Of a stretch of DNA of 34,324 nucleotides, positions 5,816 to 34,324 are shown piece after piece. The position numbers and the translations under genes are program-made. How positions within the stretch are numbered: the stretch's first letter is position 1; each line of letters opens with the position of its first letter. The notes beneath the pieces were generated by a model that ran no database searches, was not told the DNA's origin, and worked only from the letters and a program-made list of their open reading frames with translations. The DNA is from Psychrobacter piechaudii. GTDB lineage: Bacteria; Pseudomonadota; Gammaproteobacteria; Pseudomonadales; Moraxellaceae. The stretch lies in NCBI RefSeq assembly GCF_900162825.1, contig NZ_FUGE01000157.1, positions 1-34,324 on the forward strand. The letters are read 5' to 3'.

Positions 5816-5881
5816 GTTTTTACTTAGCCGATAATTGTTTTGGATAAACCAAATCTTTCTATCTACTAATCATTTATGTAA

Positions 5882-5913
5882 CAATAAAAAGCACCTTAGG
5901 GTGCTTTTTATTG
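5882..5913 (+). terminator. Intrinsic terminator after secF
   Basis: A 14-bp perfect stem, CAATAAAAAGCACC and GGTGCTTTTTATTG around TTAG, followed by GTTTT. It ends the yajC-secDF transcript 67 bp after secF and separates it from the MATE gene. Confidence 0.85.
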
Positions 5914-5947
5914 TTTTGGTCTTTTAATTTAATAAAGTATTGAGTCT

Positions 5948-9012: not shown

Positions 9013-9045
9013 AAAAGCCGATAATCTTTAAGATTATCGGCTTTT
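9013..9045. terminator. Bidirectional terminator between anion permease and ridA
   Basis: AAAAGCCGATAATCT and AGATTATCGGCTTTT form a 15-bp perfect stem around TTA, with T runs on both strands. It can end the permease transcript (+) and the ridA transcript (-). Confidence 0.88.
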
Positions 9046-9612: not shown

Positions 9613-9656
9613 AATTTTTCCTTTTTATGTCTATTTACAGTTAAAATCCTCAAAAA

Positions 9657-9696
9657 AAAGCAGGTTATAAGCCATAAATGCTTATAACCTGCTTTT
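9657..9696 (-). terminator. Intrinsic terminator after purF
   Basis: GCAGGTTATAAGC and GCTTATAACCTGC form a 13-bp perfect stem around a 7-base loop. On the minus strand it is followed by a run of eight T, placing the end of the cvpA-purF transcript about 75 bp after purF. Confidence 0.88.
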
Positions 9697-13906: not shown

Positions 13907-14365
13907 TTAAACGTGCTGCCTAGGCACATAACGCTCAACTTCATTACCCATATCTGCTACAATAAGTTCCGCCTCAAATACGCGGGCTTCCGCCAGTTGA
14001 TAGGGATCCGGCGTCTCTGCAGTCAGGAGCGCGGCCATTTTTGCCACAATCGGCATATGACACACCACGACCACGCATTCCCCTTCCACATCCATTAAGC
14101 CGTGCAAAGCCTGCATAGCATCATCATCTGGAGTAATGTCTGAATGCACCTTCACAGGCACATCAGGTTTAAGAGCGATTAACGCCTGAAGGGTTTGCTG
14201 CGCTCTAACATAAGGACTAACCACAAAAACATCAGGATTATAGTTCTCTACAATATACTGCGCTGTCTCAGCGGCCTGTTGCTGCCCTAACTCAGTTAGA
14301 TTGCGCTGTGAATCTGGCTGAGTTTGATATTCAGCCTCACCATGACGCATTAAAATAACTTTCAT
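13907..14365 (-). CDS. sixA: SixA-type phosphohistidine phosphatase (histidine phosphatase family)
   Basis: 152 residues starting MKVILMRHGEAE: the RHG motif (residues 7-9) carries the phospho-accepting His. VVSPYVRAQQTLQ gives the second conserved Arg, and VVVCHMPIVAKM gives the catalytic His. It lacks the inserted lid regions of larger phosphoglycerate mutases, as in SixA (E. coli 161 residues). SixA removes phosphate from phosphohistidine in proteins such as the ArcB phosphotransfer domain or the nitrogen PTS. It starts 13 bp after gpsA and is probably cotranscribed with it. Confidence 0.88.
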   Translation of the reverse strand: MKVILMRHGEAEYQTQPDSQRNLTELGQQQAAETAQYIVENYNPDVFVVSPYVRAQQTLQALIALKPDVPVKVHSDITPDDDAMQALHGLMDVEGECVVVVCHMPIVAKMAALLTAETPDPYQLAEARVFEAELIVADMGNEVERYVPRQHV

Positions 14366-15812: not shown

Positions 15813-16475
15813 TTACTCTGAGTCATGAGCAATGAAGTTTGCAGTGTCGATATTACCTCGGCTTGGCATTTGGCAATGGCTACTTCCCACATACACAAAA
15901 GCGGTGACGTAGTCCTCTGATCCCACATTGAAATAACTTTTAACCGCCGGCTCGTTGGCTAAAGGTCCTGTACGCCAAACTGTATCAAATCCTTGTGCCT
16001 TTAAGGCCAATATCAGATTTTGCACTGCGGCTCCTGTACTCAATAACTGCTCAAAAGCCGGCACCTTTTCATGATATTGCATACGGGTGACTACCGTAAT
16101 TATCATAGGGGCTCTTAGAGGCATCTTTAATGTTTTCTCAGCGGTACGTTCATCCAGCTCTGCTCCTTCACGCAGTGCTTTTGCTTCTGCTGCTGCTAAT
16201 AGTGCTCGACCAAAAGCGTGTCTTCTTGGGCCTTCGGTAATAATAAAGCGCCACGGTTGTAGCTTTTTATGATCAGGGGCCGTCATTGCACACTCGATTG
16301 CGGCTTCAAGTTGATTTGGTTTAGGAGCTGGTATGGTTAAATTGCCAATACTACGACGTGATTTTATCCAATTTATAACCTGCTCGTCTGTTACTTGAGT
16401 TGACTGAGCATTGGCTTCCATATTATTAATATTGTTATTGATCACTAAATCATTATCAAAATTTTGGTCAGTCAT
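15813..16475 (-). CDS. YdjA-like nitroreductase family protein
   Basis: A 220-residue FMN-dependent oxidoreductase. The conserved start of the domain, IKSRRSIGNLTIPAPKPNQL (about residues 37-56), holds the FMN-phosphate-binding Arg/Ser. DHKKLQPWRFIITEG follows. LLSTGAAVQNLILALKAQGFDTVWRTG is the helix that contacts the flavin and is characteristic of YdjA, a small single-domain nitroreductase. The physiological substrate is unknown. The first 35 residues are Asn/Gln-rich and probably disordered; Met19 is an alternative start. It precedes gpsA by 108 bp on the same strand. Confidence 0.87.
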   Translation of the reverse strand: MTDQNFDNDLVINNNINNMEANAQSTQVTDEQVINWIKSRRSIGNLTIPAPKPNQLEAAIECAMTAPDHKKLQPWRFIITEGPRRHAFGRALLAAAEAKALREGAELDERTAEKTLKMPLRAPMIITVVTRMQYHEKVPAFEQLLSTGAAVQNLILALKAQGFDTVWRTGPLANEPAVKSYFNVGSEDYVTAFVYVGSSHCQMPSRGNIDTANFIAHDSE

Positions 16476-16900
16476 GAAAACCTCTATTTATAATTATTCC
16501 TTTATCTAGGGTAAGCCTTAATAAACTAGATAAAAATAAACTGGGTAAATTGCAGTTTATTATCGGCTTGTTTTACCCCGTCCCTCGTTTATATATTGTG
16601 CTATCAACATTAAACTGCTTACTAAATATGATCTTACTAAATGTCTTCTTACTATAGATATTGGTGCTGATTTTATTTTTCACAGCACTTTTTACCAAAC
16701 TGCTACTTATCTAACAAGTTTAAAAAAGCAAAGGTAATATAAAGAGCGAAAAACTGACAGGATATGAAATTAAAGCAATAGACTGGGTCTGTGTTTATTC
16801 CAACTCAAAGGTATGCAGGCAGTCTGCACTACAAGCGATAGTCCACCGCTACTTACGCAGCAGTGGACTCTCAACAAGCAGACCTTTTAAAGCAGTGATT
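16476..16900. other. Intergenic region between aroC and the nitroreductase gene
   Basis: 425 bp without a protein gene. The part next to aroC holds a strongly folded sequence (16822-16883). The middle is AT-rich and featureless apart from a small palindrome, AGAC-TGG-GTCT, near 16780. The promoter of the nitroreductase gene should lie in the left part, but I cannot place it. Confidence 0.55.
16822..16883 (-). other. Multi-stem RNA hairpin with GUAA tetraloop, downstream of aroC
   Basis: Read on the minus strand: GTCTGC, an 8-base internal loop, AGTCCAC, a T-G pair, GCTGC, loop GTAA, GTAGC, GTGGACT, a 12-base internal loop, GCAGAC. The inner helix is a continuous 13-bp stem (two wobbles) capped by a GNRA tetraloop closed by C-G; a 6-bp outer stem encloses it. 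It begins 18 bp after the aroC stop. No T run follows on the minus strand, so it is not a standard terminator. It may be a 3'UTR stability structure or part of a small RNA. Confidence 0.6.
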
Positions 16901-18004
16901 TTAAGTAATAGCAGACACTGGCGGGGTAACATCCGCATTCTGTCCCCGATGACGGAGATAATGATCAAGCAATACGATGGCCAGCATGGCTTCAGCAATA
17001 GGGGTAGCTCTAACACCGACACAAGGATCGTGACGACCTTTAGTCAGCATCTCGATAGCATTCCCCTCTACATCGATGCTCTTACCTGGAGTGGTGATAC
17101 TAGAAGTGGGCTTAAGGGCGATGCTCACCTTAATGTCTTGGCCTGAAGAGATACCCCCCAAAATACCACCTGAGTGGTTGGCAGTGAAGCCTTCTGGTGT
17201 TAACTCATCACGAGAGGTATGCCCAAATTGCTCAGCCACACTCATACCATCACCAATCTCAACCCCTTTTACCGCGTTGATACTCATCATGGCATGAGCA
17301 ATGTCAGCATCTAAACGATCAAAGACGGGCTCTCCCAAACCAACAGGAACACCGGAGGCAATAACCTCAAGCTTTGCTCCACAGCTGGTGCCCTCTCTTC
17401 TTAAACGCTCAATTAAAGCCTCAAATCTTGGAATCGCTTCGGCATCGGCACAGAAAAAAGGATTGCTATTTACAAACTGCCAATCGATATTGGCCGGGTC
17501 TTGTACCTTTGCAGCTTCATTACCCATCTGTACCACATGACCGTGAATCGTAATCCCAAGTCGCTGTTGCAAGTACTTTTTAGCGATTGCGCCAGCCGCA
17601 ACTCTCATGGCTGTTTCTCGGGCTGAAGAACGACCTCCGCCTCGATAGTCGCGAAAGCCATACTTCATGCTATAAGTATAGTCGGCGTGACCTGGGCGAA
17701 AGGTATCCTTGATATCGCTGTAGTCTTTTGACTTTTGATTGGTATTACGTATCAATAAGCCGATCGAAGTGCCTGTGGTTTTGCCTTCAAACACTCCAGA
17801 AATAATCTCCACTTCATCAGGCTCACGGCGCTGGGTAGCAAATTTAGAAGTGCCCGGCTTACGACGGTCTAAGTCAACTTGTAAGTCAGCGCTACTTAGT
17901 GCCATACCTGGGGGAATACCATCGACTATCGCCAATAACCCCTCGCCATGTGACTCGCCACATGTCGTTACCCTAAACACCTGTCCAATACTATTCCCTG
18001 CCAT
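16901..18004 (-). CDS. aroC: Chorismate synthase
   Basis: A 367-residue enzyme (E. coli 361) converting 5-enolpyruvylshikimate 3-phosphate to chorismate, the last shikimate-pathway step, with reduced FMN as cofactor. It shows the family signatures [18 protein letters not shown] near the N-terminus, then [20 protein letters not shown] and [21 protein letters not shown] (about 105-150), and [17 protein letters not shown]. It is complete at both ends. prmB lies 103 bp upstream on the same strand, a conserved gammaproteobacterial pairing, so they are probably cotranscribed. Confidence 0.97.
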
Positions 18005-25988: not shown

Positions 25989-26010
25989 CCTTTTAGTAGA
26001 TTAATTGCCA

Positions 26011-26041
26011 AAAAAACAGACGCTTGAAGCGTCTGTTTTTT
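26011..26041. terminator. Bidirectional terminator between the lipoprotein hydrolase gene and rnhB
   Basis: AAAAAACAGACGC and GCGTCTGTTTTTT pair around TTGAA, with A6/T6 flanks usable on both strands. Its right end touches the rnhB stop codon, so it serves both converging genes. Confidence 0.9.
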
Positions 26042-26952
26042 CATCTGTGTTGTTCAAGAGCCTGCTGAATCGGTTTAAAGCTGCGTCTGTGCTGGGGTAA
26101 TACACCCAATTGCTGTATGGCCTCAATATGAGCCTTGGTAGGATACCCTTTATGACCCTCGAGACCATAGCCTAGGTATGTAGCGCCATCAGCGATAAGC
26201 TGTCTGTCACGACTGACTTTAGCCAACACACTCGCTGCGGCTATGGCACTGTGACGAGCGTCCCCTTTTACCCAAGCTTCACCATAAACCGAGCACTTGG
26301 AACCAGAGAAGTTACCTACCCCATATTGTTGTAGAAATGACCAATCTAAATCTGGTAATTTATTACCATCTACTAATAGATTAAAGCGAACGTTTGGCTC
26401 AATTGAAGGTGTCACAGTTGAGCGCAAGGTGTCTACAATCGCAATCATCAGCTGCTCGCCGGCCACTCTCATACCAAGCATAGTAGCTTGTAGAATATTG
26501 ACTTCATCAATAACTGCAGCAGGTATTTCAACAATTATATAGGCCAAAGCGTGCTGCTTAATGGGGTCAAAAAGACGCTCACGCTTTGACTCGGTTAATT
26601 TTTTGGAGTCGGTGAGTATAGATAATGCGGTATCCTGCAAGGGATTTTGCTCAATTTCAGCAGACCATATCTGGGGTAAAATCGCTCCTGACACCACCAC
26701 ACTGCCATACAAGGGACCCCGCCCTACCTCATCAATGCCTATATCAAACTTTATTAAGTTATTACCCTGAGAAGCTTGCTCAGTAACTGCAGTGTTTAAT
26801 AGTTGCTGAAGATCTTGTAGCTCATTATTTAATAGCTGTTGATTGATGTTTCCCTCAATTTTAATAGGGGCACCCAAGGGCATCGGCAAGCTATTTTGGG
26901 CGGTAGATGAGAGTAAGGTTATTTCGGTTAAAGTATTATGAAAAGAGGTCAT
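26041..26952 (-). CDS. rnhB: Ribonuclease HII with N-terminal extension
   Basis: The enzyme cuts the RNA strand of RNA-DNA hybrids and initiates removal of misincorporated ribonucleotides. Conserved motifs are IGIDEVGRGPLYGSVV (catalytic Asp-Glu, about residue 73), LTDSKKLTESKRE, LLVDGNKLP, and KGDARHSAIAAASVLAKVSRD. At 303 residues it is about 100 longer than the E. coli protein. The first 65-70 residues are an unrelated, probably disordered Gln/Asn/Leu-rich tail, and there are small insertions in the core (around TLRSTVTPSIEPN). It lies 47 bp after lpxB on the same strand, the conserved lpxB-rnhB order. Confidence 0.95.
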   Translation of the reverse strand: MTSFHNTLTEITLLSSTAQNSLPMPLGAPIKIEGNINQQLLNNELQDLQQLLNTAVTEQASQGNNLIKFDIGIDEVGRGPLYGSVVVSGAILPQIWSAEIEQNPLQDTALSILTDSKKLTESKRERLFDPIKQHALAYIIVEIPAAVIDEVNILQATMLGMRVAGEQLMIAIVDTLRSTVTPSIEPNVRFNLLVDGNKLPDLDWSFLQQYGVGNFSGSKCSVYGEAWVKGDARHSAIAAASVLAKVSRDRQLIADGATYLGYGLEGHKGYPTKAHIEAIQQLGVLPQHRRSFKPIQQALEQHR

Positions 26953-29784: not shown

Positions 29785-29817
29785 AAAAACGCCCGACATA
29801 ATATGTTGGGCGTTTTT
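29785..29817. terminator. Bidirectional terminator between the DAHP synthase gene and pepN
   Basis: AAAAACGCCCGACAT and ATGTTGGGCGTTTTT form a 15-bp stem with one wobble around AAT, with T runs on both strands. It serves the converging DAHP synthase (+) and pepN (-) transcripts. Confidence 0.9.
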
Positions 29818-34109: not shown

Positions 34110-34205
34110 TTTATTAACCGTTAACTTGATAATTTCAAACGACCATAAAAACCCAGCTTAGGCCTAATGCCAGTCAGTTAAGGCAAAAACTCAATAAAAG
34201 TAATA

Positions 34206-34240
34206 AAATAGCCCATCTAATAAGTAGATGGGCTATTTTA
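34206..34240 (+). terminator. Hairpin/terminator just before the IS4-type transposase start
   Basis: AAAATAGCCCATCT and AGATGGGCTATTTT form a 14-bp perfect stem around AATAAGT. It ends two bases before the transposase ATG and lies inside the IS. It can stop transcription from pal and could also shield the transposase from read-in expression. Confidence 0.75.
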
Positions 34241-34242
34241 CT

Positions 34243-34324
34243 ATGAGACTACAAGACGCTATTAATGAGACGCATAAAAGGATTCCAGACACCCTAGAAC
34301 AATTTAGTGAATTAATAGATCCTG
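34243..34324 (+). CDS. IS4-family transposase, N-terminal part (runs off the window)
   Basis: 27 complete codons are visible, starting MRLQDAINETHKRIPDTLEQ and ending FSELIDP. The pattern of a short helical start then LxQFSELIDP is like the Nterm_IS4 domain (family members continue with a LI..L...G..T.RKRRLP region, which is outside the window). An in-frame ATG at 34228, inside the hairpin, is an alternative start. No Shine-Dalgarno sequence is visible, consistent with low expression of transposases. The nearby IS4-like terminal repeat supports the call; activity cannot be judged. Confidence 0.55.
   Translation, partial: MRLQDAINETHKRIPDTLEQFSELIDP

Follow-up and report, generated by a model that had tools for sequence, protein, structure and literature searches.

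In Psychrobacter piechaudii, the chorismate synthase gene aroC is followed by a stable 13-bp hairpin. Most probably this is an ordinary stem-loop at the 3' end of an mRNA, like the usual terminators of the genus but with a poor U-run. It was analysed within a stretch of 34,324 nucleotides, referred to here as the window. As aroC and the next gene, encoding a nitroreductase-family protein, both lie on the minus strand (Table 1), the hairpin falls within the 3' region of the aroC mRNA. Our leading account, tentative and at slightly under even confidence, is that a terminator-type stem-loop forms and protects the 3' end of this mRNA and that Rho probably stops transcription just downstream.

Table 1. 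Coordinates of the aroC hairpin and of neighbouring features in the window
Feature	Position	Strand	Basis or scope
aroC, chorismate synthase, 367 aa	16901..18004	minus	Pfam PF01264, E 6.6e-136
Outer 6-bp helix GUCUGC/GCAGAC around the core via unequal internal loops	16822..16883	minus	predicted fold
Core 13-bp hairpin, loop GUAA	16840..16869	minus (aroC mRNA strand)	fold, stem scan and relatives
Candidate Rho loading region, best 78 nt for C over G (18 C, 7 G)	16716..16793	minus	within control range
Conserved block GTAGCAGTTTGGTA...ACCAATAT between the hairpin and the nitroreductase gene	16658..16706	minus	5 loci
Nitroreductase-family protein, 220 aa, next gene	15813..16475	minus	Pfam PF00881, E 3e-24

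A preliminary description of this region had claimed a 13-bp helix capped by GUAA on the minus strand, and the analysis confirms it. The arms of the core helix (16869-16857 and 16852-16840) include two G-U pairs, and the isolated core has a predicted energy of -23.0 kcal/mol, which makes it a stable hairpin shortly past the aroC stop codon, as in a terminator. The 82 nt from 16812 to 16893 reach a minimum free energy of -36.6 kcal/mol on the minus strand against -23.2 +/- 2.7 for shuffled sequences (z -4.93; none of 200 shuffles as low). As had also been claimed, the plus strand can fold, with an energy that proves weaker (-22.5, z -2.0, six of 200 shuffles as low), and an enclosing 6-bp helix with internal loops is present in the window's predicted fold (arms 16883-16878 and 16827-16822), which adds one G-U pair. 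When the folded stretch is lengthened by a few bases on its flanks, AAGGU/ACCUU pairing and a side hairpin replace the outer helix, which is therefore only one among several possible folds.

A scan of the window for near-perfect stems of at least 10 bp returned eight places with at least 12 bp, among which the aroC hairpin is the richest in G-C pairs (seven). One of the other seven (14289-14324) has 14 bp and four G-C pairs, and the remaining six are A-tract...T-tract shapes of 15 to 19 bp, unlike the aroC hairpin (5880-5915, 9013-9045, 9656-9696, 26009-26043, 29785-29817 and 34201-34243); these six are probable two-way terminators. In 12 Markov-simulated windows, scanned on the plus strand only, stems of 12, 13 and 15 bp were seen two, one and one times, respectively, which gives a rate of about 0.17 stems of at least 13 bp per strand and window. 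The length of a 13-bp stem alone is thus uncommon, though neither extraordinary nor decisive; better evidence comes from the relatives, in which the stem is retained. The hairpin is present as a single clear copy in its own genome, the next best BLAST match having an E of 3 and the next place found by a covariance model an E of 0.38. A repeat family of the REP type was accordingly rejected, as many copies per genome would be expected. A plasmid search gave no match.

Relatives were located mainly through gene order. A BLAST search with the hairpin in 100 genomes of the genus, its own included, returned only one clear relative (genome G023, E 2.5e-14; next E 0.02), and those beyond G023 were found through the neighbouring genes. 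The nitroreductase search had a match in all 105 genomes, and the best 30 of the 105 loci were compared. Nine of the 29 other loci among these have the same intergenic region, with aroC followed by the nitroreductase gene, and four of the nine carry a core hairpin, 11 to 14 bp long: L113 (G023), L114 (G005), L115 (G092) and L116 (G068). L114 is identical to the P. pasteurii locus L050 over 458 nt. In the other five (L117-L121) no core hairpin of the aroC type is present. The distance from the aroC stop codon to the start of the core is 31, 33, 53, 55 and 64 nt in the window, L113, L114, L115 and L116, respectively. The genomes with the hairpin, five in all, group as a single clade (support 100/99) in an aroC tree of 42 rows built without L033, L036 and L050. 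The nearest aroC to that of the window is 89% identical, and the AroC protein is 98% identical to that of P. pasteurii.

What is conserved within the clade is the lower part of the stem. Seven pairs of the form CCAC-UGC/GCR-GUGG are kept, with 28 of 28 cells being standard pairs in four aligned rows, and one position shows pair types such as U-A, U-G and C-G. L115 is absent from the pair counts, as well as from the covariance model, because MAFFT aligned its hairpin out of register. Over all 13 pairs, 86.5% of the cells in the four rows are paired, a value reached by 43 of 500 shuffles, while the nearest slid control gives 67.5%. Further, the covariation score of the four rows is matched by 130 of 500 shuffles. 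With so few rows and such shuffle counts, the covariation is only suggestive. As to the stem conservation and covariation named as checks in the preliminary description, the lower stem is retained, whereas the upper stem varies among the five genomes, the outer 6-bp helix is lost in the relatives and the covariation score does not stand apart from shuffles. The loop is likewise variable. GUAA occurs in the window only, the four relatives carrying other loops; the GNRA loop had been taken as a sign of a structured RNA, and a structured RNA on that basis is improbable because the loop is not conserved.

Among the isolated cores, G-U pairs make up 7 of 62 pairs on the aroC strand and 0 of 53 on the opposite strand. 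In all five genomes, folding of the core is also more favourable on the aroC strand, a comparison that is biased by the choice of the cores from aroC-strand folds. When flanks of 25 nt are included, L113 slightly favours the other strand (-30.8 vs -29.0), and the other four favour the aroC strand. Read from sequence, the placement of G-U pairs and the stability of the core suggest selection acting on the aroC RNA.

The same place after aroC is commonly occupied by intrinsic terminators. Among the 28 other named Psychrobacter loci scanned for a hairpin followed by a U-run (L032-L060 without L050), 25 score there, one of them weakly (L048), and none was found after aroC in L033, L036 and L055. 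In L033 and L036 an open reading frame follows aroC that, judged by eye, seems to contain a Walker A motif (GNNGSGKSS), and it is possibly an inserted ATPase-type gene. The same hairpin-plus-U-run scan was passed by 29 of 36 further loci from Acinetobacter, Moraxella and others (L061-L096), and of the five genomes outside the clade that share its gene order one (L117) has a hairpin with a U-run. Among the loci that fail the scan are L077, L080 and L085 of Acinetobacter, where aroC is followed by a hairpin with a CCACA-type stem but no strict U-run; stems of this sort thus occur outside the Psychrobacter clade as well.

Within the clade, no strict hairpin with a U-run was found up to 160 nt after aroC in the window, L113, L115 or L116. 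L114 gave a strict match only by an alternative fold (-13.4 kcal/mol) that precedes a run of seven U and takes the 3' arm of the core hairpin (core -18.3). The eight bases past the core hold 3, 5, 4, 2 and 2 U in the window, L113, L114, L115 and L116, respectively; the window's tail after the stem, AUCGCUUG, is too poor in U to count as the U-run of an intrinsic terminator. The window hairpin also lacks flanking A-tracts and U-tracts, and partial U-richness is seen in L113 and L114 only.

The resemblance of the stem itself to terminators was found with a covariance model that was built on four of the five cores and run against 105 genomes of the genus. All eight places away from aroC that were fetched (E <= 0.0013) are flanked by an A-tract and a T-tract on at least one strand, as ordinary terminators are; one further place, with an E of 0.0024, fell outside the fetched set. 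Among weaker places, L173 and L174 are without tracts and L175 has them. The flanking tracts of these look-alikes indicate that the aroC stem resembles a terminator stem of the genus with a poor U-run. Intrinsic terminators of Psychrobacter thus share with the hairpin the place after aroC, the stem length and a motif like CCACYGC/GCRGTGG, and differ from it in their A-tract and U-tract flanks. The element had been described as unlike simple terminators, which holds for its poor U-run but not for its stem. A search with the pattern CCACYGC...GCRGTGG, which matched in 68 of 105 genomes, was dropped since the reversed-pattern control also matched often; some of its matches are unchanged across species, which suggests coding sequence.

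On the leading account, transcription would end beyond the terminator-type stem with its poor U-run. RNA polymerase would probably read through the stem, and Rho would halt it in the C-richer stretch downstream of the hairpin. Exonucleases acting from 3' to 5', such as PNPase, would next shorten the transcript as far as the hairpin. The hairpin would thus become the stable end of the aroC mRNA and limit read-through toward the nitroreductase gene. The genome has both rho (694 bits) and pnp (1043.9 bits). Such an arrangement has been described for the E. coli galM mRNA, in which transcription is stopped by Rho at a C-rich terminator downstream of a stem-loop, and exonucleases then remove the 3' tail as far as the stem-loop (PMC9927376). 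As far as that account of the galETKM 3' end goes, a stem-loop near the stop codon is common to both, and the likeness of aroC in the C-over-G stretch that follows, in the Rho stop and in trimming to the stem is only probable. The two also differ in that the galETKM stem is an intrinsic terminator and its Rho step is experimental (PMC9927376), whereas the aroC stem has a poor U-run and is known from sequence.

The composition downstream of the hairpin may suit a Rho stop in some of the genomes. Within 170 nt past the hairpin, the maximum C-minus-G in 78 nt is 11, 4, 17, 20 and 6 for the window, L113, L114, L115 and L116, respectively, compared with a mean of 4.3 and a maximum of 14 in the controls, 25 loci with strict terminators. 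The clade exceeds the controls in a one-sided Mann-Whitney test (p 0.02) that was chosen after the sequences had been seen. Three of the 25 controls exceed the window's value of 11, the values of L113 and L116 are unremarkable, and 26% of all 170-nt blocks in the window reach a C-minus-G of 10. Given the post hoc test, the two unremarkable members among five and values as high in some controls and window blocks, the Rho step is weakly supported and, like trimming and protection, an inference.

A reading nearly as strong is intrinsic termination at the hairpin, either despite a poor U-run or without any U-run, the latter as in the I-shaped type described for mycobacteria. We regard this as possible, though somewhat doubtful. 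Its place and stem motif match the normal terminators of the genus, and its stem is strong, as the energy of the isolated core indicates. Further, in a lenient terminator scan that asks for 5 U in 8, the L114 core hairpin and a portion of the L113 one come out as terminator-like, whereas 0.2 and 0.1 such sites, respectively, are expected in shuffled versions of these regions; this favours plain intrinsic termination in L114 and L113. Also counting against the Rho account, L114 can form its alternative hairpin before the run of seven U. Because two relatives pass the lenient scan, intrinsic termination was raised and the Rho reading lowered in our estimate. Against it stand the tail of the window, with only three U in eight, and the hairpins of the window, L115 and L116, which the lenient scan does not list. 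Another, weak site picked out by the scan lies close to the end of aroC (16911-16936), at a rate no higher than chance (8 found, 6.4 expected). A review of mycobacterial termination states that terminators without a poly-U tail, lying up to 50 bp from the stop codon, predominate in mycobacterial genes (PMC12288462). Going by that review, I-shaped terminators resemble the aroC hairpin in having a strong stem-loop no more than about 50 nt past the stop codon (31 nt for aroC) and in lacking a poly-U tail; mycobacteria are, however, unrelated GC-rich organisms, and termination at the aroC hairpin is only putative.

A former terminator that has lost its role, and is now decaying or neutral, would suit the hairpin's poor U-run, its variable upper stem and loop and the loss of the outer helix. 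This is improbable, as every one of the five genomes in the clade has kept a stem 11 to 14 bp long even though the closest aroC is 89% identical.

The preliminary description had proposed three roles, a small RNA derived from the 3' UTR, an mRNA stability element and a leader of the nitroreductase gene. The second of these, placed in the aroC 3' UTR, is plausibly the best fit. Some small RNAs derive from mRNA 3' UTRs, and a stable stem located in a 3' UTR could belong to a trans-acting one released from aroC. Hfq needs a U-run, however, and the hairpin has neither this nor a conserved single-stranded seed, the loops being different in each comparison with the window. The suggested Rfam search found no family at gathering score in the whole window, and between 16440 and 16940 the two sub-threshold matches fall far below their cut-offs (sucC RNA, 16.6 bits against 50; a plasmodium snoRNA, 18.8 against 80). 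A small RNA is accordingly very improbable. A description of the aroC hairpin was likewise not found in the open-access literature, an incomplete body in which titles and openings of abstracts among the matches listed were covered.

The slimmest chance is that of a leader element, which would be on the right strand and upstream of the nitroreductase gene, with no mapped promoter speaking against it, but the hairpin lies 364 nt from the start codon, and the GTAGCAGTTTGGTA block stands between them in four of the five hairpin-clade genomes, a block whose role as a promoter is itself only putative. Among the best 30 of the 105 nitroreductase loci, the block is carried by five (the window, L113, L114, L115 and L117). 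It is possibly a promoter or operator. A promoter-like TTGGTA-17-TAAAAT inside it is found in the window only, and matches of the promoter scan are no commoner than chance. The ends of the block, GTAGCAGTTTGGTA and ACCAATAT, are partly self-complementary, and no second clear copy was found in the window's own genome (next best E 0.235).

The original lead is thereby mostly settled: the fold proposed in it holds up, but relatives do not share the GNRA loop. It is conceivable, albeit unlikely, that in one clade the aroC terminator has left U-run termination, keeping its stem with little or no U-run and terminating by itself or with Rho. If the terminator of the clade had switched in this manner, its sister species would form a natural series for a change of termination mechanism. 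If the Rho reading is true, related species bear stems with and without a U-run after the same gene and at the same place, which would offer a tidy comparison for the evolution of bacterial transcript ends.
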